Source of the DNA: Cephalotus follicularis
Taxonomy: Eukaryota > Streptophyta > Magnoliopsida > Oxalidales > Cephalotaceae
Length of the DNA: 64,000 nt
Reading direction: 5' to 3'
Assembly: GCA_001972305.1 (NCBI GenBank)
Contig: BDDD01000060.1
Location: 800,369 to 864,368, forward strand
Of this stretch, positions 667 to 62,977 are shown piece after piece. Every line of letters begins with the position of its first letter. Positions within the stretch are counted from its first letter, which is position 1. The notes beneath the pieces are model-generated. The model saw nothing but the letters and a program-made list of their open reading frames with translations. It had not been told where the DNA came from and searched no databases. A program made the translations under genes and the position numbers.

Positions 667-759
667 AAAAAAGTCTTTGTAGCCGTTGCATAAATCATGG
701 AGATTTAAGATATAAAAATGATGTGTTGATGCAACTCTGTTTTTTATGCCTGCTGAGAT

Positions 760-1285
760 AAAGACGTTGATGTCTTTTGGAAGGAGTCGATGTCTTTGTA
801 GGTTACTAGCCGTTGCAAGTGGGTTAACTAGCCGTTCCTTAATTCCCGAGTCAAACAATTTGAAAAGACGTCGATGTCTTTCATGGACGTCGATGTCTTT
901 TCTGGGAATGTATCCAAACATTTGAGGTTATGAGCATCGCATTGATGTCTTCTTGAAGGATCGATGTATTTTCTGGATTTTGCAGTTGAGTCTTCAAACA
1001 CATCGATGTCGAAGGGAAGGGATCGATGTCTTTTGTTGGACGTAGATGTCTTCACATACAAGGATCGATGTCTTTACTCAAAATCGACCTGTAACTTTTG
1101 TGCACTAAAGACGTCGATGTCTTCTTGAAAAGGGATTGATGTCTTTCTTCAAAAATGGCCTGTAACTTTGGTAGCTCAAAGATGTTGATGTCTTCTTCAA
1201 AAGGGATCGATGTCTTTCTTCAAATATGGCCTGTAACTTTGGTAGCTCAAAGACATCGATGTCTTCTTCAAAAGGGATCGATGTC
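760..1285. repeat. GTCGATG palindrome array in U3 of the left Sirevirus LTR
   Basis: At least 14 copies of an AAGACGTCGATGTCTT-like motif occur. Centres (T of TCGA or its equivalent) lie at 767/787, 871/890, 942/961, 1003/1023/1043/1065, 1114/1136, 1185/1207 and 1256/1278. Within each group the spacing is 19-22 bp, while groups are separated by 38-84 bp. The motif is a decayed palindrome centred on TCGA. The array occupies most of the region between the LTR start and the TATA box, an enhancer-like position. Confidence 0.9.
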
Positions 1286-1300
1286 TTTTCTTTAAAACTG
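1088..1300. repeat. 71-bp tandem repeat, three units
   Basis: CCTGTAACT recurs at 1088, 1159 and 1230, giving a 71-bp period. Each unit carries one pair of GTCGATG motifs 22 bp apart, separated by 49 bp from the next pair. The same repeat is present in the right LTR at about 15879-16090, so it predates this insertion. Confidence 0.9.
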
Positions 1301-1405
1301 TCTTTTGCCTTTTGTGAATCTTTCTAACATCTTGCACATTAAGTGAACTTTGTTAAATGCAAATATGTTATCATCAAAACTAGGATTGAGACTAAAACGT
1401 CAAAA

Positions 1406-1640
1406 ATCTCCCCTTTTTTTATGATGACAAAAATTTGCTCATAAAAAGCATAATCATAGAACATAAGCAATATCAATTGAGCTATTTCCCATAATAAGCA
1501 TAATTAAGCAATATCCAATTGAGCTATCTCCCCTTCTTGAAAGGTTCATAAAAGAAAGTTCTATTGAAAGCAGTTGAGCTCTATCTCCCCCCTTTTTGGA
1601 TAGCATCAAAAAGATAGATGTAATTAGCTCCCCCTTAATA
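1406..1640 (-). other. Polypurine tract plus further polypurine tracts of the Sirevirus
   Basis: On the minus strand, A/G-rich tracts occur at 1406-1420 (directly beside the LTR), 1522-1541, 1579-1600 and 1625-1638. The tract beside the LTR would prime plus-strand DNA synthesis. Several extra tracts upstream of it are a known Sirevirus feature. Confidence 0.8.
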
Positions 1641-2067
1641 AGAGCGAGGGTAAAAAAAATTTCAATAACATCAATATCATCATAATATGATTAATAACAT
1701 CTCAGTATCAAGAATCAGCAATATATAACACCATAATATCAACATTATAAAAAACACTATCATGATATATAATAGAAAACATTTCATTAACATACACTTG
1801 TCTTATAACACAATAGAAGTACAAAAATTACATAAACAACTTGTTTGATTACAACAAAAACTTGTTAAAGTTATAACAGCAAGAAACAACAATCAAGAAT
1901 CAGCATACAGGAGAAGGATCGGAATCATGAGAAGATTCATCGCCTGAGGTATCTTCGCATATGTCGATTGTCTTGGATGTAGTAAGCTTTCATTCCAATC
2001 ATTTGAGACGTCTTTTGCTGACACGTAAGTCATAGTAGATTGTATCTTCTATCGTCTCAAAGTCGGA
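1641..2067 (-). other. Sirevirus internal non-coding spacer
   Basis: This is AT-rich sequence between the polypurine tracts and the env-like frame. I see no gene, no strong repeat and no GTCGA motif in it. It is part of the Sirevirus by position only. Confidence 0.6.
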
Positions 2068-2415
2068 TCAAATAGTCATGTGATCCTTTTCCAAATTTTC
2101 GAGGCGCGAATTTACTTGCTGCAATTTTCCTTCAATTGATGCTTCCATCGAGTCAAACCTAGTATTCAATGCATGAAATTGAGCGCTCATGAATTCCATC
2201 ATCCGATCATACTCACTGGTAGAAGAAGAGCCATGAGTTTGAGCAGGTGGTGCTTCTTGTGCTTCCCAAGGAGGGATTTCTTCATGTTCTTCTCTCTCAA
2301 TTTTCTGACCTTGGTCACTTTTTGGACAGTAAGTCCAATTGCCATCTTGTTTCTTCCAGCCCATGCGATTCAAGGTGCTTTTGTTGTAGGTATCTTCCTT
2401 CTTCAGCTTAGTTTA
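2068..2415 (-). pseudogene. Sirevirus env-like frame, C-terminal part
   Basis: The minus-strand frame encodes an acidic, Q/S-rich stretch followed by a coiled-coil-like helix with regularly spaced hydrophobic residues (RMMEFMSAQFHALNTRFDSM region). It is the downstream part of the frame that starts at 4205, from which it is separated by the inserted LTR at 2421-3459. Sireviruses carry such an extra frame after RNase H, with a predicted C-terminal coiled coil. An envelope function has not been shown for the family. Confidence 0.7.
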
Positions 2416-2420
2416 GATTC

Positions 2421-3459
2421 TAATTATTGAATCAACTGAGTGCTACATGCACGATTTATGATATTTACTATCATTTTCCCAAGGAACGTTATTGTCTAAA
2501 TGAACTACTGTTTTCCTCCACATGAGAGGTATCGACTGTTTTGTTTCCGAATTGGAAACCACTGTACTGATATCGTTTCCTCATATGAGATGCACGATCA
2601 CTGAATGTTTTGTTTCGAAAGAAACCATTGGTATTGCATATCGATTATATATGTAATATTACTACTGATTGTACTTATTGAATTGATTGTTTATGCTACT
2701 GCCGTAGTTAGGTGATGGAGGTTATCACTGACTATGGATGTGATCCTGGGTGCCAGGAGTTGGCCAGAGTATCACCTACTGTCTGCATTTGCAGAGCTAT
2801 TGTTAAACTACCCGCCAACGCCGGTAGTAACTGATACCTTTTCTATCATTCTCGGAGTGTAGAGTGATAGTTAGGTGGTGCACAGTTGGGGGCTAGGAGT
2901 TAGCGACATGTGACACCCAAACCACTGAACGACTGAATTGATTGTACCCTTGTGCGGTATCTTTGCATATGTACTGTTTATGGCCACTTGGCATGACTGC
3001 TCTATATTGGCTACTGAAATGATATTTTGATATAAACTGTCATACATAATTGCATTCATATATTCTTTTGCACACACTATCTTCCTGCTTAGCCAAGTGA
3101 GGACAACGGCTAACCCCTACCATTACAGATTGAGCGAGGACGTTTGGAGTCTTGCTACCGAAGCTTCTGAAAGCTTCTATTATCGTTTTAAGGTTGTTAT
3201 TTTACTGTTGTTATGTACTGTATTGAACGAACGAATCACACCTTGTTTACTGTTGTATTCCTTATGATAAGGATATTGTTAACTGTAACCGCACGTAGTA
3301 TGGGATGCGTGCGAAGGCTTGTACTTATACATTCTGGCTTATTGACTATTTTCCGCATACTGTTTTATACTGTTAAATGTGATGCTGGAATGTATGTTAA
3401 TACTGATACTACCATATATGCTTGTCTAAGTATATGGCACCGAACTACGGGGTGTGACA
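2421..3459 (+). repeat. Shortened Tekay-type Gypsy LTR inserted in the Sirevirus
   Basis: The sequence aligns with the downstream 1 kb of element A's 3' LTR (23629-24621). Shared pieces are the CCAGGAGTTGGCCAGAGTATCAC block, the GGCTAACCCC block and the end ACGGGGTGTGACA. It ends at 3459 in TGTGACA. The flanks GATTC (2416-2420) and GATTT (3460-3464) look like a target duplication with one mismatch, suggesting that a short LTR form was inserted or that a longer one shrank. The left boundary is approximate. Confidence 0.8.
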
Positions 3460-4205
3460 GATTTCTTCTGTGAAAAGGCACGCACCATCGTGTGGAGCAT
3501 TAGCAGTGGATAACAAAACTCAATTTTGGAAATGATGCACCACTTTAGGAATGCTTGCATCCTAGTGAGTTTTGCATAACCACCACCGGTAGGAAGAAAT
3601 TGATGAACAATGAGGTGATGTAAAATACGATGATCAACCGAGAGCTTGTTTGTGTAGAGGGCCATGTTGGGATGAATGTTTGGATCATTAGGGTAGAGAA
3701 TTGATAAAATGTTGTTTGGGTGAAAACCTTCGACTTCCGGACATTTCCTGTATTCAAATATATACAAGCCGTTGTGAGGAATATGAAGAATTGATGCAAG
3801 AATCATATCATTTAAAAAGATTCTTTGACCTTTGACAGTTGAAGAGAGGGCAAATTCTTCATGAGGACCAGAAACAATCCTTAAGTTCATGTAAAACTCT
3901 TTGACAAGCTTGACATAGAACATGTCCTGAATTTGAACTAAAGGAATGAGATGTAATTCTTCTAGCCAAGAAACAAAAGAAAACTCATTGGAACAAAAGG
4001 ATAAATCTATGTTCCTCCCACCCATTACCCTTTTGTCAACAAATGTAACATTGCGGAGAGGAATTTCTTCTTCGGATTCAGAATCCGATTGAAGAGCGGG
4101 ATCGGGAGAAGGTTCCCGAATGTTAAGTTTCCTCTTAGAGCCAATTTTCTTAGGATGGGAAGAGCTAGAAGCCTTCTTTATGCCAGTAGTTTTTGTTCTA
4201 GGCAT
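3460..4205 (-). pseudogene. Sirevirus env-like frame, N-terminal part
   Basis: The minus-strand frame starts at 4205 with a basic K/S-rich segment (MPRTKTTGIKKASSSSHPKK), then an acidic SDSESEEE stretch, then a globular region with LEELHLIPLVQIQ and GGYAKLTRMQAFLKW. This layout matches the plant-transposon protein domain commonly found as the extra frame of Sireviruses. It lies about 515 bp after the end of RNase H, the usual place. The last residues before 3460 run into the nested LTR. It is a fossil; whether the product ever acted as an envelope is unknown. Confidence 0.75.
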
Positions 4206-4720
4206 TTTGTGAAATAGTTGGGATGCACAACAAACAAGAACAAAAACAGGAAGATAACAGGAATTGGAAGAAGAAAAGAAGAGTTTGAGGAAGAGAGATG
4301 ATAGAGTAGAAGTTGTAAGAGTGATTAGAACGATTATAAAATTTAGAGGGAGAAAAAAAATTCAGAAATGTTCAGGGTGAGGGTAAGATGACAGTGGAGA
4401 AGGGAGTCGACGTTTTTATGAAGAAAATCGATGAAATGTAAAAGACGTCGATGTGATTACAAAGGCGTCGACGTTTTCTTAAAAAAAATAACTAAAGGCA
4501 TCGATCTAAAAAACAAGAAAACGATGCATTTTAAATATCATCGATGCGTTATGAAAGAGATCGACGTGTTTCAAAGACATCGATGTCTTTGAAAAGAGAT
4601 CGACGTGTTTGGTCAAAGAATCAAGCAGATTAAGCTTAAAATAGAACAAGTTTAAAAGCAAGATATTCAAACACATCTTACTATCTATTTAAGCAATCAC
4701 AAACATAACCATCAAAACAT
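4206..4720 (-). other. Spacer between Sirevirus pol and env-like frame, holding a phased GTCGA array
   Basis: The region carries ten GTCGA-type motifs, with centres at 4407, 4428, 4448, 4468, 4501, 4521, 4541, 4561, 4580 and 4600. Steps are 21, 20, 20, 33, 20, 20, 20, 19 and 20 bp. This is outside the LTRs, directly upstream of the env-like frame in the direction of transcription. It could be a cis-regulatory array for that frame, which is an inference from position only. Confidence 0.85.
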
Positions 4721-6303
4721 TCAATCAAGATCACATAAGCCAAGTTCTCTTCTAAATTTTGAAAAAGAATTTTCATCTAAAGGCTTATTGAAAATGTCAG
4801 CAACTTGTTTTTCCGTAGGAATATATTCTAAAACAATATGTCCGTTTTCAACATGCTCTCTTAAAAAGTGATATCTAATATCAATATGTTTTGTCCTTGA
4901 GTGATGAAAAGGGTTCTTAGCTAGACAAATACTACTAGTATTATCACATTTTATAGAGACATCTTTCACAAAAACACCATAGTCTATCAATTGTTGCTTT
5001 TGCCATAAAATCTGTGCACAACAACTACCTATAGTAATATATTCAGCTTCAGTGGTAGACAATGCAACAGAATTTTGCTTTTTGCTGAACCAGGAAATAA
5101 GCATACTTCCTAGGTATTGGCATGAGCCACTAATGCTCTTGCGATCAACTTTATATCCACCAAAGTCGACATCCGAGTATGAGTGTAAATCAAAACTAGA
5201 GTCTCGAGAATACCATAAGCCTAAAGTAGGTGTATATGCAAGATATTTGAGAATACGTTTAACAGCAAACAGATGAGATTCTTTAGGGTTTGATTGAAAA
5301 CGAGCACACAAGAAAACACTAAACAATATATCAGGTCTACTAGCAGTTAGATACAATAACGAACCTATCATGCTTCTATAAAGCTTTTGATCGACATTTT
5401 TTCCTTGTTCGTCTTTGTCAAGCTTTGTAGAAGTGCTCATAGGAGTCTTACTTGTTTTAGCGTTCTCCATTCCAAACTTTTTGAGAATTTCTTTTACGTA
5501 CTTAGTTTGGTTGATGAAGATTCCCTCTTTGGTTTGTGTAACTTGAAGTCCAAGGAAGAAGTTGAGTTCTCCCATGAAGCTCATTTCGAATTCTGACTTC
5601 ATAGTATTAGAAAATTCCTTGCATAAAGATTCGTTAGTCGATCCAAAAATAATATCATCGACATATATTTGTACTATTAGTAAATCATTGCCTTTTGATT
5701 TTGTAAAAAGTGTTATATCAACATTTTCTCGTTTAAAATCATTTTCAATCAAAAATTTTGTCAACCTCTCATATCAAGCTCGAGGGGCTTGTTTGAGACC
5801 ATATAAAGCTTTGTTTAGTTTAAAGACATGGTTTGGAAAGAAAGGATCCTCAAAACCTTGAGGTTGTTCTACATACACTTCTTCTTTTATAAAACCATTA
5901 AAAAAAGGCACTTTTTACATCCATTTGATACAATTTGAAATCTTTAAAACAGGCAAATGCGAGTAATAAGTGAATAGATTCTAATCTAGCAAACAGGTGC
6001 ATATGTTTCATCATAATCTATACCTTCTTCTTGTGAATAACCTTGAGCAACTAATCTAGCTTTGTTTCTAACTATAATTCCTTAATTATCCATTTTATTT
6101 CTAAACACCCATTTAGTCCCTATTACAGAATGATCCTTAGGTCTAGGTACTAAAGACCAAACCTTGTTCCGTTCAAACTGGTTTAATTCTTCTTGCATAG
6201 CTACTATCCAGTTTTCATCATTTTCAGCTTCTACAAAGTTCTTAGGCTCAAAGTCAGAAAGAAAAGCAACATAATTACAAGTATTTGCATTAGACCTAGT
6301 CAT
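4721..6303 (-). pseudogene. Sirevirus reverse transcriptase and RNase H
   Basis: The minus-strand translation begins near 6303 with the RT entry region (NKVWSLVPRPKDHSVIGTKW). Further on it has the catalytic IYVDDIIFGS motif, FFLGLQV, the MIGSLLYLTASRPDI stretch and the RNase H segment with STTEAEYI and SRTKHIDIRYHF. The order and motifs are typical of Ty1/Copia, with closest resemblance to Sireviruses. It would copy element RNA into DNA in cytoplasmic particles. This is a fossil copy with several breaks. Confidence 0.92.
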
Positions 6304-7308
6304 AACACCATGTTGAATATTACCAATTATGACCTCATGTGGGTGATCTTTAACTACTTTATAGGTCTTATCTACAAGGTCTTGTTGCTAACTATCCTTA
6401 GATTCTACATCTATGTTCTCAGAAGGTTCATGAAAGTCTATGCTATCATGCATATGTGTACTTGAATCATGTGTCTCATCAAAAACAACATGCATAGACT
6501 CTTCTACTAGCAATGTTCATTTATTGAAACATCTATAAGCTCTACTAGTAAGTGAATATCCAACAAAAATACTTTTATCCGCTTTCTAGTCGAACTTACC
6601 AAGTTGATCCTTTCCATTGTTGTGTATGAAACACTTGCATCCAAAGGCACTGAAGTGACTTATGTTAGGATTTCTCTCTCTCCATAACTCGTACGGAGTC
6701 TTTTTGAGAATTGGCCTTATCGATGTTCTATTTAAAATGTAACGTAAAGTGTTTGTGGCTTCGGCCCAAAAGTACTTTGGAAGATTGTTTTCGCAAAGCA
6801 TGGTTCTAGTCATTTCTTCTAAAGTTCTATTTCTCTTTTCAACAACACCATTTTGTTGAGGAGTTCTATGGGTTGAAAATTCATGTTTAAAACCATTTTC
6901 AATGCAATAGTTATCAAAAATGTTATTTTCGAATTATTTACCATGATCGCTTCCTATTTTCAAAATAGGAAGTCCTTTTTCTTTTTGAACATGTTTACAA
7001 AAATTTGTAAAGAATGTAAAAACTTCACTTTTATGTGCTAAAAAGAAAACCCATGTGTACCTAGTGTAGTCATCAACAATAACAGAAGCATAAGACTTAC
7101 CACCTAAGCTTCTTATGTTTATAGGACCGAATAAATCCATATGAAGTAGTTCGAGTGGCCTAGAAGTTGAGACAATGTTAGTTGATTTGAAACTTGCTCT
7201 AATTTGTTTTCCTTGTTGACAAGCATCACAGATTTTATCCTTTTGAAAACTCAATTTAGGAAGATCTTTAACTAAGTCATGTTTTAAAATCTTGGCAATA
7301 GTTCTCAT
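6304..7308 (-). pseudogene. Sirevirus integrase
   Basis: The minus-strand translation contains the zinc-binding-region end CDACQQGKQIRASFK, the core domain start LLHMDLFGPI and VDDYTRYTWVFFLAHKSEVF, and the later NTLRYILNRTSIRP and PYELWRERNPNI segments. These are standard Ty1/Copia integrase landmarks, upstream of RT as expected for Copia. It is a fossil copy with several breaks. Confidence 0.9.
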
Positions 7309-7332
7309 AATAACATGACCAAGCCTTCTATG

Positions 7333-7804
7333 CTACATCCAACTATCTTCATTTAAAGAGACAAGACATTTAACATTTTGGTTTTGAAGATCATTTAAAT
7401 TTATAACATACACATTGCCTTCTCTTTGTCCAATAAACTTGGTAGCATTATTATTGTTGTCAATGACTCTACATGAGGTGTTTTCGAAAATAACTCTACA
7501 ATTCTTGTCACACAATTGACTTATGCTCAAGAGATTGTGTTTGAGTCCTTTAGCATGCAGTACATTAGTAATAGTAATGTTTTTATTACCTATGGAACCG
7601 GTTCCAATGATTTGTCCTTTTGTGTTGTCTCGAAAGGTTACGTTTCCTCTGTCTTTTGGTTCCCAGATCACAAATAGGCTTTTGTTACCCATCATGTGTT
7701 TGGAGCATCCGCTATCAAGGTACGACCAATTCCTTTTTGATGATGTCTTTAGATACATCTACAAATCAAGAGAGTTTAAGTTGAAGACTTTGGTACCCAA
7801 GTTG
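7333..7804 (-). pseudogene. Sirevirus protease and pre-integrase region
   Basis: The minus-strand translation carries the aspartic protease motif YLDSGCSKHMMG near the solo-LTR junction, followed by VLHAKGLKHNLLSISQLCD, which is conserved between Copia protease and integrase. The region is cut off from gag by the solo LTR at 7810-13732, whose CTTTG target duplication flanks it at 7805-7809 and 13733-13737. Confidence 0.88.
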
Positions 7805-9409
7805 CTTTGTGTCACACCCCGCCTTTCAATTCCATTACAGACAAGCATATATGGTGATATCAGAAATAAATATAATCTAGCATTCTCATTCAACAATTCA
7901 TAAACAAGCGGAAGCATTCATATCAAGATTATAAAATAAGTCATCCGCACGCAGCCCATACTACGTGCGTATACAATCCATCAAAATATCCTTTTACATA
8001 AGGAAGTACAACAACATCACAGGGTATGAACCGTTCATTACAATACAGTACATCATAAAAATAACAACCTTAAGATAGAAATAAGTTCTCCAAAAGCATC
8101 AGCAGCACCCTCCAACGTCTTCGCTTAATCTGAAATTGTAGGGGGTTAGCCATTGTCCTCACTGCTAAGTAGGAAGATGATGCATGTTAATGAATATATA
8201 AATGCAACATGTATGACATTTTATATTTAGGAATAACATTTAAGTATTCCAATATATAAGCAACCATGCCAAGTGGCCATAGACAATACAATGCAAGAAT
8301 ACCGCACAAGGGTACAATCAATTCATACTATGGTTGGGTAACACATGTCGCTACCTCCTAGCACAAACTGCGCACCACCTATCTATCACCCTACACTCCG
8401 AAGATGATAGATTAGGTAACATTTACTGCCGGCGTTATCGGGCAGTTTAACAAATAAGATCTGCAAGGCAGATAAGTTTGGGTGATACTCTAGCCAACTC
8501 CTGGCACCTAGGATCCCCACCGTAGTCAGTGACCTCTGCCATCACTCGACTAACGGCATTAAGCATAGACAATCAATTCAATCAATTCAGTTTAATAATA
8601 ATATTACATATATATAAAATATGCAATGTAGTATTTGTTTTCTTTTGGAAACATATAACAATTCAGTGATCGTACATCTCTTAAGAGGAAAACGATATCA
8701 ATACAATAGTGGTTCCCAGTTGGAGAACAAAACAGTAGGTACTTCTCATCGGAGGAGTAGTAAATCATTGGCAATAAGTTTTCATTTTGAAACCATTAGT
8801 AAAAATCCATATCCGTGCTTATAGCACTTAGTTTGGTTTAATCCTTGAAATATGGAAACAATAGTGTTTATAAACACTCACTAGTATATACTAATTAACA
8901 GTAGCATATACAGCAACAATAGTAAAAGACAGTAGCGATTCAAGGATTCAACAAGGTAGTTAGCATACCATAGTCATTCATGTGCAACTCACACAAGGAG
9001 TGTAACACCCCCGATTCGGAACCGGGATCACTCCCGATTCAGGATCGGTGTGTCACACAAAACTGAACTAAAAACATATCAAAGATCTTAATCTTAATCA
9101 TCATCAATACGTGGTGGTTCTAAAAATCTGAAAACATGTATAATCATGGAACATAAACTGAATCTGAAACATAATCTGAAAACTTTATCATAAACCAAAA
9201 TGTCATAATCCAAAAATCACAATACTGTTCAGATAACTGGCCTATACACGACCATAACACTACTAAAAACATAACCGGATCGAACTCCTAGATGATCCTC
9301 TGACATTGGGTAACTCTCTCATCACACTTGCCCATGTTGTCCCTGAAAACCTGCCGCATGGAAAACAAAACGCGGCTGAGCAAACCTCAGTACAGATATA
9401 GAATCATAA

Positions 9410-9730
9410 AACAGTTTATGAAACAAATCAATTACGAAACAACATAAATACGAATCAAACGGATACGAATCAAAACAGAACAGTTTACGAAACAAAACAG
9501 TACGAAACAAAACCGTATCCGAAACAAAGCAGTTTACCAAAACGAAACAGTAAGAAACAAAACAAAATCCTGCACAATACAGTATCTGAAACAACACTAT
9601 ATGATACAAAACATTTTACGAAACGAAACACTCTACGAAACAGAATAGAACAATTTACGGAACAAAAGAAAACAGTTTCTGAATAGTACGAAACAAACAG
9701 ATTACGGAACAAAACAAAGCAGTAAACGAC
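9410..9730. repeat. Short CGAAACA-type repeat block in LTR B
   Basis: About twenty loosely spaced copies of a TACGAAACAAAACAGT-like word fill this stretch. The spacing is irregular, roughly 10-20 bp. It is low-complexity LTR sequence; reading frames across it are artefacts. Confidence 0.8.
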
Positions 9731-10429
9731 AAACGATAATTTGAAAGCAGTAAGATTTCAAAGTTAACTCCAAACATAAATCTTAAGCAATATATCAGTT
9801 TAAACATTCTTTGAAATCACATGTGAACTTTCATAAAAACCAAATCCATAACTTTCAAAACGTATGACAAACCTTTCAAAACATAAGTTCCATACTGAGC
9901 CACATAACATATCACATATCGAAACACATATAGCAAGGGAGTAACTAATTCCACATTGCCAAATAGAATTGCAGTGTACGGCACTACACGTACAATTCCC
10001 ATATCATAACATATCTCAAATCATATAACTAGGATCGATCCATACGCCTCAATCACAAATCCTATCCAAGGATATCCCAGAGAGACGCCGTAAACTAATC
10101 ACACCGTTACGGAAAGTGTCATGCCCCCGTGTCAGGCCCACAGCATGCCTATGGTACGCCCCATTGGTGGGTACAAAAGCTCAGTATTTCACCATTTCAA
10201 AAACTTTGATTTCATCAAAATCAATTAAAATACATAGAAGGGTTTCCCAAAACATAATTATAAATCATTCTCAAATGATATAGTTTCACATAACGTATAC
10301 TTTCATAATAAAAAGGCAACTCTTTTATTTTCACAATAAGGAGACATTTGCATAGTATTTCGTAACATAACACAGCTGAATTCATTAAGCCACAAAAATA
10401 TTCATTTCCGTAAAATATCAACTGACTTT

Positions 10430-11100
10430 ATTTCAAAGCATACGAAATATACTTAGCTCATAAAACCAAAGGAAACATATTCATAAAACTGAATTCATTT
10501 CAAATAATTCAGATGTCCAAAACTGATTTTATTTCGCTAAAATCGAAGAGAGTAGCAAAGAGCAGAATATCCGTACCACATTCACAAAAGTAAAACTGAA
10601 TTCATTTCAATAAAACTGATAGAGAAACCAAGGAAAGGAAATCTATACCAAATACAGAATCTGAAATTATCTCAAATAAAATCAGAAAGATAGCCAAGAA
10701 AGAAGGACATCCGTACTTCATTTACTAAAACAAAACCAAATTTATCTCAACAATACTGAAAGAGATAACAAGGAAGGAGAATCCGTGCTTTATTCATATA
10801 AGTAAAATTAACTTTTTACTCTAATAAAAACAATAGAAGGTTATCAAGGAACGAAAGATCCGTACTTTATTCTTTAAAGCAAAGTAACCCTCATTTTAAT
10901 AAAACCAACAACGGAGGGTATCAAGAAAAGAGTTATCCATACATAATCATTAAACAGTAAAATTGACTTTATTCAAATAAAATCAAAGGGAGTATCCAAG
11001 AACGAAAGAATAATCCGTACATTAATCATAAAAGTGAAACTGGATTGTTTTAATAAAATCAGATAGCCAAAGAACGATAGAATCTGTACCTCATGCGATC
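10430..11100. repeat. Degenerate tandem repeat of about 65-80 bp in LTR B
   Basis: Words of the type ATCCGTACtTCATTcA, AAAACTGAATTCATTTCAA and AGAnAgCCAAGGAA recur in order about seven or eight times. LTR F has only a trace of this pattern (around 63170-63240), so the block expanded after the two families separated. Unit boundaries are approximate. Confidence 0.7.
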
Positions 11101-44955: not shown

Positions 44956-44968
44956 TTTGCGGCCTTAT

Positions 44969-51427: not shown

Positions 51428-52203
51428 GTGAATGTAGCCCAAGAGGCAGAAGTGACAGCTCCTAATCGAGTGGAGCCTAAGTGCCTTATGAGAAGAATGC
51501 GTGCAATGATGGCCCAGACGAATGAATTTATGCAGCATCTTGCGACTGCATCAGAACAAACCCCAACCACCAGACCTGATAGAAGAGCGGCTGAAGCTCC
51601 AGAACAACCTCCGGCCGCAAGAACCACTAGGCATACGATGGCAACAACGAGATCGGTCGGTCAGTCTACACGCCTAGAGGATCCTCTAACCAGGTTTTTG
51701 AACCTAAATCCCCTGGTGTTCACAGGGGACCCAGATGCAGTAGCAGGTGAGATATGGTTAATGCGAATCGAGAAGATTTTCGGAGTCTTAGAGTGTTCCG
51801 ACTCCCAAAGGATTCTCTTCGCCACATACATGCTACAGGGTGAAGCAAAACACTGATGGAAAATGATTGAAACCTCATGGGAACAATCAGAGGTAGCTAG
51901 TTCATGGGACAGATTTAAAACAGAATTTAATGGACAGTACTATCCCGAAGCAAAAGTGGATAAAAGAGAGGCCGAATTTCTTAACCTGACTCAAGGTGAT
52001 ATGAAAGTAGCTCAGTATGAGGCCAAGTTCACTTAATTGTCAAGATTAGCTCCACACATGGTTAATACTGAAACAAGAAAGGCTAAGAAGTTTCTTATAG
52101 GACTCAGACCTAATATCAGACAACAGCTGGTACCTGTACGGTTGAGATCCCTCTTTGAATTGTCTAGCAGAGCCAGAGACATAGAAGCTGTGACCAATTA
52201 AAT
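51428..52203 (+). pseudogene. Element E gag, N-terminal and core part
   Basis: The translation shows the Retrotrans_gag core: FTGDPDAVAGEIWLMRIEKI, FGVLECSDSQRILFATYML, then FNGQYYPEAKV, LTQGDMKVAQYEAKF and ARDIEAVTN. It stops at the insertion point of D2; the rest of gag lies from 60023. It is a fossil with breaks. Confidence 0.88.
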
Positions 52204-53400
52204 TGTCACACCCCGTTTTCCAAACGACATATAAGTGGTAGCAATTAACATAAATAATCCGGCTTATCGAATTCACGACAATTTAAACCTTTTAAAACAT
52301 ATATGTCAGTTGTGAAAGCGTTTAATATAAGCCGAAATAACAACGTAACACGCATCCCATACTACGTGTTACAACAAAACAACATCATTGTTAATTGCTC
52401 ACGAAACGGAGTGTGATGTAACCTTCATTTAAACCATAAATATCTCCCATAGAGAAGTTCACATATATAAATCAAAACCAAAAACATTACAATATCCAAA
52501 TTGAACAAGTACAATTTGTCATCCTCTCCAACATGAGTAGGATTATCATAATACAAGATTAGCTTAAACAACCTTTAGATAGAAGCTCCCAAATGTCCTT
52601 AACCGCACTTGTCTAACTGTCTCCGTCAATCTGAAATAGTAGGGGGTTAGCCTTTGTCCTCACTCTGCTAAGTATAAATACATTTTGGGATCAAATAATG
52701 AATGACATGAAATGAATGCATTAATGATGCAGTATATAGATAACACAGGATATACATGATCACCCAACAGGGTTTAGTAGTTATCAAAATTTCACAGTCC
52801 TTTTCAAGTAATTTATAAGTATAAATTCTTGAAACATATATATATTTTGCTCAAATATACAAGGGTACCTTTTCAATCCTTTTCAAGTAGTTTTAATGTA
52901 TCATAAAAAACTTGAAAACAATACATTTAAAATGTACTCAGAACTTTCAAAAATACTCATATCCGTATACCATAATTTTAATTATGTGAAACCATTTCGC
53001 AATCCTTTTTGGAAAATATACATTTCCGTCACAATCCATTTCCAAGTAAATTGTTGTGTATAAAGTACTTAACAATATTACATTTATTCAAAATGTATAA
53101 CTAGTCCTTTTTGTACAGTAATTAATTCTTCGAGAATACTTATTTTCGTATACATAATTTCAATCATTGAAATCATTTTTACAATCCTTTTTGGAAAATA
53201 TATATAAACACATTTCCACACAACCATCATATACACATTTCTTAAATTAAATTCATTTAAGAAATCATGCGGTATTACAACAAATCAATTCGCAGTAGTA
53301 TGCAATGCAACCATATGCTCGAACATGCCTAGAGTCATTTCTAGAATCGTTCCGGAACTAACGGGTCCAAAATGGGTCAAATTGTACAATCCAGGAGGAA

Positions 53401-53950
53401 AGACGTCTATGTCTTTCCTCAACGCGGCGATGTTCATTGCCCCAAAAGCGTCGAGGTTTATCTTCAAGGTCAGTGCTTGCAACAGTACGAATCGTGTCGA
53501 CGTTTTCCTGCAGGCGTCGATGCCGTCAAGCCAAAACCCTTAGGCGTCGATGTTCATCACAACGCATTGACGTTTCAGGTAGGAACCTTAACACGTCCTC
53601 GTATTATATGCAAGACCTAATGCATAGCAACCAAAGACGTCGATGCCTTCCATAGACGTCGATGTTTAAGTGGTACCAAGAGGTATCACCTCGACCAGAC
53701 TCCATTTCAAAGAAGAATCCATCCTCCATCAACGCATGTACTTCCCAGATACACCATTTACGGCGTAACACGCACAACAGGTTATTCATGTGTATAACCA
53801 AATCATCAACCCATCAAAAGTCCAAAAGTCCAAAAGCAAACATTGTAGTTCTGCAAATGTTTGAAATAGACATCGATGCTTAACTAAGACGTCGACGTCT
53901 ATTTCCTCATCGCATAAAGACATCAATGCTTATCACAAAAGCATCGGCGT
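53401..53950. repeat. GTCGATG pairs, downstream zone of the D2 3' LTR
   Basis: Centres lie at 53407/53428/53452, 53498/53518, 53548/53568, 53641/53660, 53873/53892 and 53923/53944. Steps inside groups are 19-24 bp. Confidence 0.92.
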
Positions 53951-54694
53951 TTAAAAGTCCAGAACACTGTCTCTTCCATACAACACCCAAACAGGAACAT
54001 AAAATCCAATTATACATACATTCTAACATGGGATTCTCACAGAATTCAACATGTATGCATAATCCACTCAACCAGGTGTTCATATCATCAAACAAACATC
54101 CAAATCAACTCCAAAGCAGGCATGCAATTCATGCATTTAGCTTAAACTTAAAAGTGTACATATACTTCCCCTACCTCTGGTTTCAAGTTAGAAACCTTGA
54201 AAGTCCACCTCTTTGTGTTTCAAGAGTTGATCACAGCAGCCCCAGGTTTGTCCCTTGCTGCAAGCTATCAGCTCTAAGCTCCCAAGCTCCACTGGTTCAA
54301 CAATGGTGGAACTCCCTCTTCACACTCACTGTTTCTTTCTTTCCTCTCCTTAGGTGTTTTAAACGAGAGAGAGGGGTGGGGATGGGGTTGTTCTTATGCA
54401 GATGGCTCCCTCTCTCTCTTCCTCTCTGCACTAAACGAACACTCCCTTGTTCTCTCCCTCCTCCCTATACAATTCCTGCATTCCCCTTTTGTTTCCTTCT
54501 CATTTCCTTTTTGCAGGTTGCATGCATACCAACATTTGTCACATTCTTTTTCCTTCTTCATTCACGCAGGTCAGGAGGCTATTATGCATGCCCAACACAT
54601 CCCACTTCGTGTCCCAAGGTGCCTACAACAAGCCCAGAATAGCCTCCCTTTGCACGTTATTCTGTCAGTTCATAACGTGACTGGTATTCTTTTG

Positions 54695-54845
54695 AAAGAC
54701 GTCGATGTCTTCTTTAGACGTCGATGTCTTTTCCTCTTTCGCACAAGGGCGTCGATGCCTTCGTCTACATCGACGTGCATGTGCATGCATTTACGTGCGC
54801 CCCTTGTTCTCATAGGCGTCGACGTCTTTACAAAGACATCGATGC
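54695..54845. repeat. GTCGATG pairs, upstream zone of the D2 3' LTR
   Basis: The pairs are 54702/54721, 54752/54770 and 54819/54839 (19, 18 and 20 bp). The zone is homologous to 29774-29930 of D1. Confidence 0.93.
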
Positions 54846-55048
54846 GTTTAGCCCAAAATTGCACCGTTTTGCCTCTAATTGCATCTTTTAGAATTTCTTT
54901 AACATCTCCATAATTCCTTCTTCCAAAATCTAACCTTTTAAATTTTGGAAAGAATCATTTAAGTAAAAATTTATGCCATTCTCATTAACTCAATAATAAT
55001 ATTTCAAAAATTGAAATATTACATCGTGCAAAAATCTCGGGCGTTACA

Positions 55049-55417: not shown

Positions 55418-56587
55418 TCATAGATGGCAAAAGGTACCTCTCATGATGCCTTTGCCGGTATCTCTCCGCTGTAAAGGTCCAACTGTAGCACCACCATCAC
55501 CGGCAGGTCTAGGGGGCACTGTCACTTGCTTCATCGGACAATCCCTCCTTAAATGGTCAGGTGCTCTACACCTCATACATGACCCATTTTTCCACCAGCA
55601 GTCCTCCGGTTGATGGCCCTTGTGGTCACAATGGGGACAGACTCCCGTCCTAGAATTACTCCCCTGACTAGGAGTGCCCTGATTAGTAGTTTGTTGAGAT
55701 TCATTCATTGTTGACTTTGTTGGAGAACCACTACTTTGCCACTTAGATGAAGCTGGCCTAGATTGCTTGGAAGTTTGGTTGCTCTGCTGTGTACGAGCTC
55801 TCTCGACGCGGTCTTCACTTGTTATGCTTTCCAGCAACCTTGCTTTTTGGGCAACCTCTACAAAAGTTCCCAACTCCATAGCTCTAATCCTTGGCCGAAG
55901 GTCTGGTCATAGTCCCCTCAGGAACCTCCGAATTTTCTTTTCCTCATCCGCCACCAGATAGGCGGAGTGTCTGGAAAGATCCATAAACCTGGCCTGGTAT
56001 TCAGCCACGGTCATCTCTCCTTGTCTCAGCTCTAGAAGTTCTGTCCCTCTTCGTTCTTGCTCGATACGAGGAACATAGTTATCAAGAAATTCTCTCTGGA
56101 ATCATTCCCATGTACTATCGAGTCCGGTTGACTCCCACTTTGCCTTGACCATCTCCTACCAGTGGATGGCCTCGCCCCATAACCGGTAGACAGCAAATTT
56201 CAGCTTCTGGTTTTCAGTACAATCCATAACTTCGAAGATCTTCTCCAGATCTTGCAACCATCTTTCTGCAATAGTAGCATCTAGCTCTCCCCGAAATCTA
56301 GGAGGATTCTGCCTCATGAATCTCTCTAAGCCTTTCCCAAAAGAGTTCCCATCTTCATGGTCACACTGAGCAGGAGCTCTATGTCGGGGTTGAGCTTGTG
56401 CGTAGTATTGGTGCATCTCCTCCGCATTAGCCATATTGATGGCCATATGCTGTTGAAAGTAATCCGCAATACGCACCAATGGATCTCTGTCATCATGGGG
56501 GACATTTACTCCTCGCGGGGCATTCGCCACCCCTGGGGCATTGGCCTCAGCGGCTCTAGCTCTCGCACGTGTTCTCCTTCTGTCCAT
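55418..56587 (-). pseudogene. D2 gag
   Basis: On the minus strand the frame starts at 56587, about 100 bp after the primer binding site, with MDRRRTRARARAAEANAPG. The Retrotrans_gag core follows (FRGELDATIAERWLQDLEKI, VMDCTENQKLKFAVYRLWGE). Nearer 55418 come an S/Q-rich stretch and two CCHC zinc knuckles, CPHCDHKGHQPEDC and CMRCRAPDHLRRDC. It would package element RNA into particles; replication would need pol proteins from a partner such as element A. A small number of breaks is present. Confidence 0.9.
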
Positions 56588-56697: not shown

Positions 56698-57389
56698 TCT
56701 TGTCACACCCCGTTTTCCAAACGACATATAAGTGGTAGCAATTAACATAAATAATCCGGCTTATCAAATTCACGACAATTTAAACCTTTTAAAACATATA
56801 TGTCAGTTGAGGAAGCCTTTAATATAAGCCGAACTAACAACGTAACACGCATCCCATATGTGTTACAACAAAACAACATCATTGTTAATTGCTCATGAAA
56901 CGGAGCGTGATGTAACCTTCATTTAAACCATAAATATCTCCCATAGAGAAGTTCACATATATAAATCAAAACCCAAAACATTGTTCCAAAACCCCAATTA
57001 CAATATCCAAATTGAACAAGTACAATTTGTCATCCTCTCCAACACGAGTAGGAATATCATAATACAAGATTAGCTTAAACAACCTTTAGATAGCAGCTCC
57101 CAAATGTCCTTAACCGCACTTGTCCGACTGTCTCCGTCAATCTGAAATAGTAGGGGGTTAGCCTTTGTCCTCACTCGGCTAAGTATAAATACATTTTGGG
57201 ATCAAATAATGAATGACATGAAATGAATGCATTCATGATGTACTATATAGATAACACAGGATATACATGAATATATATATCCACAAGTAGGTATCACCCG
57301 AGGGTCACAATAACACAAGCACGAGACTATCCCTGAAGGAGCTAGATAAAACGATCTAGTCAGTAAGGACCCATCAAGCCAGATCAAAG

Positions 57390-57620
57390 TTGTTGACACC
57401 CAGGCTCAACAACCGGTTACTTACACAACAGTGCTTAGCAGCCAAAAGGGAGTCCCTAGCTACTTGCCCAACAGGGCTCAGTAACTGTTCATGGAAAACC
57501 CTAGCTACTTTCTCAACAGAGCTTAGTGGCTACCGTATACGGAACTTCCAACCACTTCCCAACAGGGCTCAGTAGTGGAATCCTGGCTACTTACCCAACA
57601 AAGTTTAGTAACCCAAACAA
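57390..57620. repeat. Tandem repeat with CCCAACAGGGCTCAGTA units in the D2 5' LTR
   Basis: About five irregular units of 36-48 bp contain CTACTTnCCCAACAGGGCTCA. The 3' LTR shows only one unit (52760-52780). Confidence 0.88.
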
Positions 57621-58359
57621 GCCATCACAAGTAATTACCAACCAAAAATACTTGCAACCAAAACATCCCAAATGGGCATCAGTCCTTTTTAACACAAATT
57701 ACAGTTTCCAGTTACCCACCCAACAGGGTTTAGTAGTTATCAAAATTTCACAGTCCTTTTCAAGTAATTTATAAGTATAAATTCTTGAAACATATATATA
57801 TTTTGCTCAAATATACAAGGGTACCTTTTCAATCCTTTTCAAGTAGTTTTAGTGTATCATAAAATACTTGAAAACAATACATTTAAAATGTACTCTGATC
57901 TTTCAAAAATACTCATGTCCGTATACCATAATTTTAATTATGTGAAACCATTTCGCAATCCTTTTTGGAAAATATACATTTCCGTCACAATCCATTTCCA
58001 AGTAAATTGTTGTGTATAAAGTACTTAACAATATTACATTTATTCAAAATGTATAACTAGTCCTTTTTGTACAGTACTTAATTCTTCGAGAATACTTATT
58101 TTCGTATACATAATTTCAATCATTGAAATCATTTTTACAATCCTTTTTGGAAAATATATATAAACACATTTCCACACAACCATCATATACACATTTCTTA
58201 AATTAAATTCATTTAAGAAATCATGCGGTATTACAACAAATCAATTCGCAGTAGTATGCAATGCAACCATATGCTCGAACATGCCTAGAGTCATTTCTAG
58301 AATCGTTCCGGAACTAACGGGTCCAAAATGGGTCAAATTGTACAATCCAGGAGGAAAGA

Positions 58360-59825
58360 CGTCTATGTCTTTCCTCAACGCGGCGATGTTCATTGCCCCA
58401 AAAGCGTCGAGGTTTATCTTCAAGGTCAGTGCTTGCAACAGTACGAATCGTGTCGACGTTTTCCTGCAGGCGTCGATGCCGTCAAGCCAAAACCCTTAGG
58501 CGTCGATGTTCATCACAACGCATTGACGTTTCAGGTAGGAACCTTAACACGTCCTCGTATTATATGCAAGACCTAATGCATAGCAACCAAAGACGTCGAT
58601 GCCTTCCATAGACGTCGATGTTTAAGTGGTACCAAGAGGTATCACCTCGACCAGACTCCATTTCAAAGAAGAATCCATCCTCCATCAACGCATGTACTTC
58701 CCAGATACACCATTTACGGCGTAACACGCACAACAGGTTATTCATGTGTATAACCAAATCATCAACCCATGAAAAGTCCACAAGTCCAAAAGCAAACATT
58801 GTAGTTCCGCAAATGTTTGAAATAGACATCGACGCTTAACTAAGAAGTCAACGTCTATTTCCTCATCGCATAAAGACATCGATGTTTATCACAAAAGCAT
58901 CGACGTTTAAAAGTCCAGAACACTGTCTCTTCCATACAACACCCAAACAGGAACATAAAATCCAATTATACATACAGTCTAATATGGGATTCACACAGAA
59001 TTCAACATGCATGCATAATCCACTCAACCAGGTGTTCATATCATCAAACAGACATCCAAATCAACTCCAAAGCAGGTATGCAATTCATGCATTTCACTCA
59101 TGGCAAAACATTAGCTTGAACTCAAAAGTGTACATATACTAACCCTACCTCTGGTTTCAAGTGAGAAACCTTGAAAGTACACCTCTTTGTGTTCCAAGAG
59201 TTGATCACAGTAGCCCCAGGTTTGTCCCTTGCTGCAAGCTATCAGCTCCAAGCTCCCAAGCTCCACTGGTTCAACAATGGTGGAACTCCCTCTTCACACT
59301 CACTGTTTCTTTCTTTCCTCTCCTTAGGTGTTTTAAACGACAGAGAGGGGAGGGGATGGGGTTGTTCTTATGCAGATGGCTCCCTCTCCCTCTTCCTCTC
59401 TGCACTAAACGAACACTCCCGTGTTTTCTCCTTCCTCCCTATACAATTCCCGTATTCCCCTTTTGTTTCCTTCTCATTTCCTTTTTGCAGGTTGCATTCA
59501 TACCAACATTTGTCACATTCTTCTTCCTTCTTCATTCATGCAGGTCAGAAGGCTATTATGCATGCCCAACACATCCCACTTCGTATCCCAAGGTACCTGT
59601 AACAAGCTTAGAATTGGCTCCCTTTGCAAGTTATTTTGTCAGTTCATAACGTGACTGATATTCTTTTTAAAGACGTCGATATCTTATTTAGACGTCGATG
59701 TATTTTCCTCTTTCGCACAAGGGCGTCGATGCGTTCGTCTACATCGACGTGCATGTGCATGCATTTACGTGTGCCCCTTGTTCTCATAAGCGTCGACTTC
59801 TTTAAAAAGACATCGATGCGTTTAG
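58360..59825. repeat. GTCGATG pairs in the D2 5' LTR
   Basis: The zones 58360-58910 and 59665-59825 match those of the 3' LTR. The first zone up to 58772 is unchanged between the two LTRs, while later motifs differ by C/T and G/A changes. Confidence 0.92.
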
Positions 59826-60022
59826 CACAAAACTGCACCGTTTTGCCTCTAATTGCATCTTTTAGAATTTCTTTAACATCTCCATCATTCCTTCTTCCAA
59901 AATCTAACCTTTTAAATTTTGGAAAGCATCATTTAAGTCAAAATTTATGCCATTCTCATTAACTCGATAATAATATTTTAAAAATTGAAATACTACATCG
60001 TGCAAAAATCTCGGGCGTTACA

Positions 60023-60440
60023 GAAATACATAATTTGAGAATCCATACTGAAAATAAAAGATCTACATCTCCAAGTGGACATTCTGGTAGGAGTTCTAGA
60101 GGCAGTAATAAATCCCAAAGATTAAGATATAGCAGTAGCCCTGGCCAGAGTGGATCCCCACATAGCATTAGTAGTCCTGCTAGTCCCTCCATATTTGGGA
60201 AACAATCCCAGCAGAGAAGGAGAGGTCGTGGCTCTCGGCAGAGAGATCGGGGATTATTGTCACCACTGAGGAGTCATTCCATATTTGCTGACTCTAACTG
60301 TCAAACCCCTTATGAACCATGTATACATTATCAGCGTATGAATCATGCATCCGATGATTGCTGACGTAAAACTGGTAAATGTATGGTTTGCAGAGATACG
60401 GATCATAAAGTTACGGAATGCCCTTATGGAAGGTACGGTT
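60023..60440 (+). pseudogene. Element E gag, C-terminal part
   Basis: It continues after D2 with an S/G/R-rich basic region (TSPSGHSGRSSRGSNKSQRL) and zinc-knuckle wording (CIHYQRMNHASDDC and CMVCRDTDHKVTECP). Basic region plus knuckles bind RNA. It is a fossil with breaks. Confidence 0.82.
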
Positions 60441-61592
60441 ATGGTAATCAGCCAAGATAGAGTGTGGCTTCATATCAAGGAGGTTCCCAACTGAGCCGTA
60501 ATTCTAGACAGCAATATCAGGGTCATCCTAGCACCAACTCAGGACGAGGAGATCGTGGAAAGCAACCCATGGGGTCAACACCTACCGTGCAAGGTAGGGT
60601 AAATGCTATGGATATGTAAGCCGCAACAGGATCTGCCTCGATTATTGGAGGTACGATATATATATTTCATTGTATGGCACAAGCTCTTATAGATTCAGGC
60701 TCCTCCCATTCTTATATTGCATCATATTTTATACAGCATCTGCATGTGGAACCAGAGCATTTACCCTTCTTAATCGAAGTTAGCACACTAGTAGGAGAGT
60801 CTGCTACCTCCGAATGGGTGTGTAAGTCTTGTGTTATTGAGATTGTCGGACATACTTTATTGGCGAATCTTATTGTTTTACCGATGGGCGAGCTTGATGT
60901 GATTCTGGGAATGGACTGGTTATCGGCACATTATGCTTATGTGGATTGTAACAGAAAGGTTGTAACCTTCAATGTACCAGGGCAATCTCTGTTCCAGTTT
61001 ATTGGAACTATGGAATGTCAACTGATTCGAATGATATCTACCATGCAAGCTAACAGACTCTTGAGACAGGGTTGTAATGCTTTTCTGGCACATGATATGG
61101 ATGGCAATAGATGGGTGCCGAAGTTGGAAGATGTCCCAATTGTTTGCGAATACCTGGACGTGTTTCTGGAAGAGTTGACATCGTTGCCTTCTGAAAGAGA
61201 CGTGCAATTCTCTATAGATCTCTTACCAGGGATGGCACCTATATCGAGAGCTCCTTATAGGATGGTTCCTCCCGAATTGAACGATTTGAAAGTGCAATTC
61301 CATGAGTTACTTGACAAAGGTTTCATTCGACCAAGCGTGTCTCCTTGGGGAGCACCGGTCTTATTTGTTCAAAAGAAGGATGGATCATTGCGAATGTGCA
61401 TTGATTATCGACAACATAATAAAGTGACTATTAAGAACAAATATTCACTGCCGCATATTGACGAGTTATTCGATCATCTTAGAGGATCGACAGTGTTCTC
61501 TAAGCTATATTTGAGATCCGGATATCATCAGCTCAGGATTAAGAAGGAGGAAATCCCGAAAATAGCTTTTAGATCGCGGTATGGACATTATG
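60441..61592 (+). pseudogene. Element E protease and reverse transcriptase (N-terminal half)
   Basis: The frame from 60674 shows the aspartic protease motif [16 protein letters not shown], then [20 protein letters not shown]. After a linker comes the RT entry ([19 protein letters not shown]), [30 protein letters not shown] and [20 protein letters not shown]. It ends where LTR F begins, before the catalytic aspartates. This is Gypsy, chromovirus-like. It is the longest open stretch in the window but is not a complete gene. Confidence 0.92.
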
Positions 61593-62073
61593 TGTGATGA
61601 CCCAAGTCCATTTTGGTTATTGGACTTGTAATACCCTGCTTGCCTGTACGTATTTTCTTACGGGTTATATCTGTTTCGTTTAAGTAATTGTCTGTTCTAT
61701 GTTGGGTTTATGTTTTTGGGCCGATTGATGCCAGCCTTAGCTTTAGGATGTTAGTATGGACATTTTGTTGGGTAAGTTTAGTCACACTGTTATTTCTACA
61801 AACCAATTTATAAATACATAATTATAATCTTATATTTACAAATTGATTTTATTAATTATGTTTTCAAAATTGGCTTTTAAAACAAAATCTTTTATTTTAC
61901 TTTCCTTCTCCCTCTCAAACTCTCCCTCACCCGTATCCCTCTTTCTCCAATCTCCCTCTCCCGAACAACTCTATCTCTTTCCTTTCTTTCTCCCAAAAAA
62001 TCTTCACTCCTTCCATATCTGAACAGATTTTGTTTCCTAAATCCCTATCCTACCCGATTGGTCCCCTAAATTG

Positions 62074-62082
62074 CTATATAAG
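62074..62082 (+). promoter_or_regulatory. Candidate TATA box of LTR F
   Basis: CTATATAAG lies about 480 bp into the LTR after a pyrimidine-rich stretch. The palindrome array lies 700 bp downstream of it. Confidence 0.6.
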
Positions 62083-62770
62083 TATGCCAACGTCATTGTG
62101 TCAACCATTCCTTCACCTTCTGTGTTGCTGCCGAACCTGTCATTGTGAGTGTGCTACGTTTTCTGTGTCTCTGGCTTCAACAATAAGGTTTGTCTCTCCA
62201 TGGATAAATTGTAGGAATCATGGTTACATTGTTTTGTATGGTGGGTAGGCTTTGTGTTCATTATTTTCTTCCTTTCATTTCGTTTTGAGCAGCTACTGTG
62301 ACTTCTGAATTGGTTTCTCTCCAACTGGTTTTGCCATAATCAGGTTGGTTTCCTTACGTTGTTATGTCATGGTGTTTGGCTATATGTACTGTCTATCGAA
62401 TTCTTATGTTATAGGCTGCTAGTTTTCTTTAATTCAGTATTGGTTCCTGCCTTCCATATTCTGTCAATCAATTTATGAGTTGGTTAGCAAGCCAATTGTC
62501 ATTTCATATGTGTTATGTAATCTGGTTTTATAATTTGAACATGGCAATTATGCAGAAAAGTGATTAGGAAGAGATATGCTGGGTATTAATTTTTTGTCAT
62601 CTTAAGTAAATTACTGTCAATAGGTCTCTGTCGAATTCAGTGTTGTAACATTGTTTTACATGCCATATAAAGTTGTTTTTGATATTGGTAATCTTTCGGT
62701 GTTGAAAAATCTGAGTTTTGGCAACTAGATTGCACAAAACTGCACAAAACTGTTGTTCTGTCACCCAGAG

Positions 62771-62977
62771 CAGTCGACTGCCCATATGAACAGTCGGCTG
62801 TTTAGTTTGTGTAGTCGGCTGTCTTGTGCGAACAGTCGGCTGCTTTGTGTTACGTAGTCGGCTGGACCCCTGATTCAGTCGACTGCCTACAGTCCAGGTT
62901 GAGTAGTCGACTTGCCCTGTTGTGTAGTCGACTGCCACCCCTTGAATAGTCGACTAGATCCCTGAAACAGTCGACTG
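62771..62977. repeat. Densest phased AGTCGACTG array, in LTR F
   Basis: Ten motifs have centres at 62774, 62794, 62815, 62836, 62858, 62879, 62907, 62928, 62950 and 62971. Steps are 20, 21, 21, 22, 21, 28, 21, 22 and 21. Four read GTCGGC instead of GTCGAC. Bases between motifs differ. Confidence 0.96.

Follow-up and report, generated by a model that had tools for sequence, protein, structure and literature searches.

Clusters of short non-coding motifs have been described in Copia retrotransposons of the Sirevirus group and in VANDALs, which are DNA transposons. The RM boxes of Sireviruses are high-copy palindromes that lie in the long terminal repeat (LTR) upstream of the TATA box and again upstream of the third (env) open reading frame (ORF); 12 of the 13 published RMs have a CGG-CCG core, two of the 13 (Vitis CGGTCGACCG and Tnd-1 ACAATCGATTGT) have a TCGA centre, and classic retrotransposons are described as lacking such boxes (Bousios 2010, PMC2829016). 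As far as the available portions of the respective papers go, the maize palindrome CACCGGACNNNGTCCGGTG is common to Copia elements and Helitrons (PMC10760457), and the VANDAL/VANC system comprises short non-coding motif arrays that shift between related elements (PMC5735166, PMC10398659). Here we analyse arrays of TCGA-centred palindromes in a 64-kb window of the Cephalotus follicularis genome (contig BDDD01000060.1, positions 800,369 to 864,368), which carries LTRs of a Sirevirus and of several Gypsy families; all motif statistics refer to this one window.

Like the RM boxes, the arrays of this locus precede a Sirevirus TATA box and a third ORF, but they differ from what is described of RM boxes in their R-TCGA-Y core, in their helically phased spacing and in being carried by Gypsy LTRs as well. 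With the reported maize palindrome they have in common that one palindrome occurs across unrelated transposon classes, whereas the motif differs, the partner of Copia is Gypsy here and Helitrons there, and a spacing grammar is reported here. As described for VANDAL/VANC, the arrays are found in non-coding regions, related elements carry a shifted motif and an unrelated element shares the motifs (those of VANC6 in that system); unlike the published motifs YAGTATTAY and AGTTGTMC, which are non-palindromic by inspection, the arrays here are palindromic. Sirevirus LTRs were already known to carry palindromic arrays, two of them TCGA-centred, and in maize a palindrome was known to be shared across transposon classes. 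Gypsy LTR arrays of this kind, the R-TCGA-Y rule and the helical spacing were not found among the open-access literature matches listed, nor did the open-access literature yield a GTCGAC palindrome in LTR retrotransposons or CAGTCGACTG in retrotransposons.

Density, core and spacing of the palindrome arrays

Extended palindromes, defined as a TCGA centre with 8-bp arms and at most 2 mismatches, occur 73 times in the window when both LTRs of an element are counted, compared to a mean of 6.8 and a maximum of 11 in 20 dinucleotide shuffles, an approximately elevenfold excess. With these arms and mismatches, TCGA ranks first among the 16 palindromic centres, TATA, ATAT and TGCA likewise being above every shuffle. 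Most of the palindromes (61 of 73) fall within 20 arrays totalling 5.2 kb, the limits of which were drawn by hand after the sites had been seen. Outside these arrays, there is a small excess of extended palindromes (12 versus 5.9 expected, standard deviation (sd) 2.1), and plain TCGA occurs 144 times versus 133.7 (sd 13.2). When each array was compared with 200 shuffles of its own sequence, 14 of the 20 exceeded all shuffles in extended palindromes and likewise 14 in TCGA count, and 18 did so on at least one of the two measures.

The first-pass annotation of this DNA had listed GTCGAC-centred palindrome clusters in the LTRs of the Sirevirus and of the Gypsy families A, A2, D1, D2 and D3, in H, J and F, and in a sequence termed K, and had expected a motif density above that of dinucleotide-matched shuffles. 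The density was borne out by the shuffle comparison in the window, and the list of carriers held in part: shuffle counts agree with it for the Sirevirus LTRs, A, A2, K, D1, D2 and D3, whereas H and J are both weak. The TCGA count is raised in H (38745-39225; 14 versus 3.6 expected, with 1 extended palindrome) and in J (44820-44960; 4 versus 0.5 expected, with 2 palindromes versus 0.03). Family F (9832-10522 and 63318-64000) has 2 TCGA per copy and no array, and was rejected as a carrier. The TCGA centre itself stands, but GTCGAC is too narrow a description, accounting for only 51 of the 131 array hexamers next to GTCGAT (43), ATCGAT (20), ATCGAC (9) and others (8). As a general label for the arrays, "CpG island" was discarded, since the ratio of observed to expected CpG ranges from 0.31 to 2.70 over the 20 arrays, with a window value of 0.69.

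The TCGAs in the arrays follow a rule beyond palindromy. An R-TCGA-Y core is found in 123 of the 131 array TCGAs (86 of 92 clustered ones with one LTR per element) compared to 34 of 144 elsewhere, where the four flank classes are about equally frequent; this is a separate rule because Y-TCGA-R would be equally palindromic. Consecutive gaps of 19-23 bp within clusters account for 36 of 78, compared to 7.2 (sd 2.5, maximum 18) in 5000 random placements, J being outside the segments taken for this count. In a scan of periods from 7 to 16 bp, the R-TCGA-Y distances between 14 and 110 bp fitted best to 10.5 bp, i.e. one helical turn (R 0.41, n=164), and those between 24 and 110 bp to 10.6 bp (R 0.30, n=124), statistics that are indicative only, as both the distances and the array copies are non-independent. 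Core and spacing are present in Copia and Gypsy elements alike.

Conservation of the palindromes and a predicted dimeric regulator

Conservation was compared by alignment columns between A and A2 (both arrays) and between D1 and D2 (array 1), with P values obtained by circular shifting. Palindrome columns were identical at 138 of 151 positions and spacers at 213 of 287 (P 0.0014) after array 1 had been trimmed at its limits in both D1/D2 and A/A2; untrimmed, the three comparisons sum to 142 of 161 versus 273 of 367. For A versus A2 alone, the values are 84 of 91 in palindromes and 128 of 176 in spacers (P 0.0020). The palindromes are better kept although their core holds a CpG, the decay of which should act in the opposite direction. 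This bears on neutral growth of the arrays, by which short palindromic repeats would have been expanded by slippage without any function. The Sirevirus array at 760-1300 contains a higher-order tandem repeat of 71 bp, which, like the regular 20-21-bp units seen in places, would be in line with such growth, but the A/A2 spacers are still alignable while the palindromes between them are better kept, the same core recurs in separate arrays of one LTR and in both Copia and Gypsy, and the spacers of Sirevirus and D are unrelated. We regard neutral growth as improbable.

On these sequence features, we consider it probable that the arrays are cis-regulatory, enhancer-like clusters of paired predicted sites for a dimeric DNA-binding regulator. 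Each site would be a dyad in which the R-TCGA-Y core hardly varies while the arms depend on the family, and the distance of two helical turns (19-23 bp) would place neighbouring dimers on the same face of the helix, allowing cooperative binding. The common core and spacing in Copia and Gypsy would point to a single family of proteins, the members of which would each be matched by their own kind of arms. A possible lead for the factor is the CBF/DREB type with the site RYCGAC, which fits GTCGAC and ATCGAC but not ATCGAT (20 of 131 array hexamers). Integrase attachment sites were rejected as an identity of the arrays, as the search for published vl-att sites had been directed at the outermost 40 bp of LTRs (PMC4963935) and the arrays lie further in.

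Several observations weigh against such a regulator. Neither measure exceeds all 200 own shuffles in the arrays at 4400-4620 and 53395-53960, and H, for all its TCGAs, has only the one extended palindrome. The spacing is weak in D3 and J, with a single gap of 23 bp each. Besides the non-independence behind the phase statistics, distances of 24-60 bp alone give a best period of 9.6 bp (n=53), and in a looser scan periods of 22.5-23.5 bp score level with 10.5 bp. The column test depends on the trimming mentioned above, the untrimmed D1/D2 array 1 giving 58 of 70 palindrome versus 124 of 165 spacer positions; D1/D2 array 2 was excluded from it for want of a clean alignment and, with many gaps, gives 84 of 111 versus 230 of 332. 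The two A2 LTRs show no contrast (38 of 40 versus 127 of 136 in array 1), which is expected because their insertion is recent. In the Gypsy LTRs, TATA matches are weak and the second array lies downstream of the tentative TATA box. Finally, of the 14 arrays folded as RNA, every one was more stable than the average of its 60 shuffles (z from -2.2 to -8.4), a result that palindromy alone already predicts.

The folding result would also suit a role in RNA, namely that the palindromes form transcript hairpins for the production of small RNA, including small interfering RNA, or for packaging, as proposed for maize Sirevirus palindromes, on which an excess of small RNA is reported (PMC5311732, PMC10760457). 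We consider this unlikely in view of the way in which the symmetry is broken. Among symmetry-breaking pairs on the sense strand, counted in the Sirevirus LTR and internal arrays, A, A2, D1, D2 and D3 (with H, J and K left out), there are 63 A-C, 14 G-U and 53 other pairs, whereas selection for hairpins would favour G-U. A-C exceeds G-U in each of these seven array groups (six elements), so it is not obvious that hairpins of the sense RNA are being maintained. CpG decay between the LTRs of a pair has no clear strand bias (CG/CA 16, CG/TG 10), so recent decay does not account for the A-C polarity. Furthermore, the most constant part of the sites would be the loop, and a hairpin would not need helical spacing. 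The polarity of the symmetry breaks may mean that the sites are read in one direction.

The Sirevirus element and its third ORF

By its domains and layout, the element at 478-16195 is classed as a Sirevirus (Copia). Its coding pieces are on the minus strand and include matches to Retrotran_gag_2, Pol_BBD, SH3_retrovirus and RVT_2, as found in Copia elements, and its 3' LTR (478-1403, minus strand) and 5' LTR (15268-16195, minus strand) are 95.7% identical. Four polypurine-like G-rich tracts before the 3' LTR (1636, 1594, 1535 and 1415, minus strand) are a Sirevirus trait, as are palindromic arrays upstream of both the TATA box and the third ORF. The CGG-CCG core of 12 of the 13 published RMs is replaced here by the consensus AAAGACATCGAYGTCTTT, which does not exclude membership because Tnd-1 is a published exception. 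Among the matches listed for the Copia reverse transcriptase (RT) piece, the one of highest identity is from C. follicularis (92% over 71% of the query), and many listed matches scored higher at lower identity.

The array in the 3' LTR (760-1300, minus strand) consists of R-TCGA-Y sites with AAAGACATCGAYGTCTTT arms and holds 13 TCGA versus 4.3 and 5 palindromes versus 0.24 expected; that in the 5' LTR (15550-16095, minus strand) holds 11 TCGA versus 3.3 expected. In sense coordinates of the LTR, the sites lie at 123-614, followed by TATATC at 690 and TATATAAAGG at 741, and some 100-130 bp separate the end of the array from the TATA box downstream. This would be the expected place for an enhancer activating transcription of the element. 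An internal cluster (4400-4620, minus strand), which the first-pass annotation had not listed, is flanked by the RT piece and the third ORF; all 9 of its sites are R-TCGA-Y, with spacings of 21, 20, 20, 33, 40, 20, 19 and 20 bp and a perfect 26-bp palindrome at 4569-4594.

The third ORF has an open piece at 3429-4361 (minus strand) that matches PF20167 (expect value (E) 4.2e-14) and is shorter than some of its relatives. A repeat, also present at 7810-8756 and 23724-24621, separates this piece from another piece of the same ORF at 2071-2412. All of the best 120 of 415 matches to the third ORF are from C. follicularis, and a relative has a basic N-terminus, a single stretch of moderate hydrophobicity and, by prediction, a long helix at the C-terminus, features by which "envelope-like" may be a poor label for the Sirevirus third ORF.

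These features also make the product of this ORF a conceivable ligand of the arrays, in a manner resembling VANC anti-silencing: a protein encoded by the element, e.g. the Sirevirus PF20167 product, would bind the arrays and lift silencing, and Gypsy elements would use it in trans. In favour of it are the location of arrays both within the LTR and immediately ahead of the third ORF, the number of third-ORF relatives in Cephalotus, the basic N-terminus and predicted helix, and the shift of arms between related LTRs (D3 versus D1/D2), which VANDAL targets undergo as well; VANC6 also hypomethylates the unrelated AT9TSD1, which bears its motif (PMC5735166). On the other hand, a structure model obtained via the relative P0247, aligned with 46 others so that 47 of the 120 listed relatives were used, has a mean predicted local distance difference test (pLDDT) score of 39.5 and is unusable for the fold, and Sirevirus third ORFs are published as envelope-like (PMC3599292). 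We rate an anti-silencing protein of this kind as very unlikely.

Arms and sharing among Copia and Gypsy LTRs

In contrast to the common core, the outer arms are family-specific: A, A2 and K carry CAGTCGACTG, D1 carries AAAGACATCGACGTCTTT, with near versions of it in D2 and the Sirevirus, and D3 carries CGTCGACG, whereas the outer symmetry of H is weak. The exact 18-mer AAAGACATCGACGTCTTT is common to the Sirevirus and D1, and the closest shared 18-mer of D2 differs from it in the first base. D3 uses CGTCGACG (5 of 6 sites), whereas D1 and D2 mainly use CATCGACG (7 of 15 each); as the D3 LTR is partly alignable with the D1 and D2 LTRs, the arms have been switched within a lineage while the core was kept.

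Over their full length, the Sirevirus and D LTRs give a local alignment score of 61, compared to shuffle maxima of 31 and 34. With the motifs masked, the scores drop to 23 and 22, compared to shuffle means of 22.9 and 23.5, by which the sharing between Sirevirus and D is not ordinary LTR descent. Between the Sirevirus and A2, the alignment revealed nothing above chance, so only core and spacing are common to Sirevirus and A. One way to account for the similarity to D is the transfer of a module of about 40 bp with two sites between Copia and Gypsy, by template switching or gene conversion, followed by local amplification. The matching stretches (e.g. 44 bp at 88.6%, 41 bp at 87.8%, 33 bp at 90.9% and 57 bp at 80.7% identity) are about the size of one two-site module, the unmasked score agrees with a transfer, and the asymmetric GACATCGACGTC has the same orientation to the sense strand in Sirevirus and D. 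Against it stand the scores of the masked LTRs, the many combinatorial matches that repeated sites give anyway, and families A and H, in which R-TCGA-Y core and spacing occur together with other arms and would be left unexplained. We take transfer to be possible for D, because the spacers within the shared pair of about 40 bp are too short to judge, but do not favour it as a general explanation. If the arrays are sites for a dimeric regulator, the agreeing arms would mean that the Sirevirus and Gypsy D use the same member of the protein family.

Among the Gypsy LTRs, much of the sharing is explained by descent. The arrays of A and A2 align through their spacers, K and A can be aligned over 39-107 bp, with at least two registers, and A2 and D2 have in common a purine tract before the LTR, a related gag and the array layout. 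In A, A2, D1, D2 and D3, array 1 is located some 145-350 bp inside the LTR, and array 2 of the Gypsy LTRs starts about 135-280 bp past a shared GGTAGGG landmark, as estimated from the positions. The earlier interpretation, in which LTR descent was no explanation and independent elements had converged on or exchanged sites for one factor, is thus partly supported: it applies to the Copia Sirevirus versus Gypsy D, where masked LTRs are at shuffle level, but not to all of the Gypsy arrays among themselves. What favours the idea of binding sites is the R-TCGA-Y core, together with a spacing of two turns and palindromes that are better kept than their spacers.

More speculatively, one regulator, encoded by the host or by the Sirevirus, might serve both Copia and Gypsy through R-TCGA-Y dyads two turns apart, forming a guild of elements in which arms switch and the core is kept, as in the target shifts of VANC; we hold this extended version to be doubtful. 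If true, unrelated retrotransposon superfamilies in one host would obey the same regulatory grammar, and the 40-bp two-site module would be a probe for the protein behind the activation or protection of much of a plant genome. The arrays would also offer a test of whether LTR palindromes act as enhancers, silencing triggers or anti-silencing targets.

Family A has two arrays on the minus strand, array 1 (13500-13595), identified by site scan and shuffle counts, and array 2 (12485-12605), which has the core CAGTCGACTG at a spacing of 20-21 bp and aligns with A2. The A2 element (17358-23652, plus strand) has LTRs at 17358-19104 (5') and 21906-23652 that are 97.3% identical, with RVT_1, RT_RNaseH and RT_RNaseH_2 pieces between them, some relatives of which are named Ty3-gypsy; a C. 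follicularis match to the RNase H piece (77%, second row) has the highest identity among the matches listed. Site scan and shuffle counts placed arrays 1 and 2 of A2 at 17525-17665 and 18838-18960 in the 5' LTR and at 22073-22213 and 23386-23508 in the 3' LTR (all plus strand). With its Gypsy-type RT and RNase H, A2 does not belong to Sirevirus, and the likeness is one of grammar and not of membership. The A-array pattern had no match among viral contigs, in which 31 and 4 stretches fit the RT and RNase H peptide patterns, respectively, and none was confirmed. The K array (62765-62985, minus strand) has the core CAGTCGACTG and aligns with the A array.

In D1, array 2 (28640-29030, minus strand) has AAAGACATCGACGTCTTT cores in pairs 21 bp apart, and array 1 is at 29770-29935 (minus strand). 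The D2 element has its 3' LTR at 52203-55048 and its 5' LTR at 56700-60022, with the primer-binding site then at 56697 (all minus strand). Array 2 of the 3' LTR (53395-53960) has counts equal to, not above, its highest own shuffle, array 1 of the same LTR is at 54690-54850, and the 5' LTR carries array 2 at 58350-58920 and array 1 at 59665-59825, the latter with 0 extended palindromes left (6-bp arms, 1 mismatch); all are on the minus strand. A gag piece of D2 (55421-55906) matches the A2 internal region at 19463-19705 (39% over 85 amino acids, E 2.1e-10), placing family D with a Gypsy-type gag, and also matches 60320-60427, which precedes a protease-RT piece. The D2 gag pieces gave no more than zinc-knuckle matches below the cutoff in Pfam and nothing significant in NCBIfam or the PDB. 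No RT was found among open stretches of at least 110 amino acids in the 1.6-kb internal region of D2, and an A2-like tract before the LTR and an initiator methionine (iMet) primer site are present. Because its gag matches A2 and these open stretches include no RT, we read D2 as a probable non-autonomous Gypsy element.

D3 (39624-42176, minus strand) reads as a solo LTR, judged by eye from a 5-bp target duplication, CTATC on the minus strand, and its minus-strand arrays are at 40940-41140 (array 2, core CGTCGACG) and 41880-41970 (array 1). The array of H, presumably on the plus strand in view of a purine-rich stretch and a site resembling a splice donor, has R-TCGA-Y cores with gaps often of 19-22, 41-43 or 63 bp, and J is a short array with no strand assigned. 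Apart from the arrays, the window contains a long inverted pair of related sequences (30946-33382 and 44968-47191, 75-76% identity), a 166-bp unit in two head-to-tail copies that are 99% identical (15-346), and minisatellites at 42267-42510 (26-bp units), 43668-43844 (15/30-bp units) and 49917-50107 (22/44-bp units).

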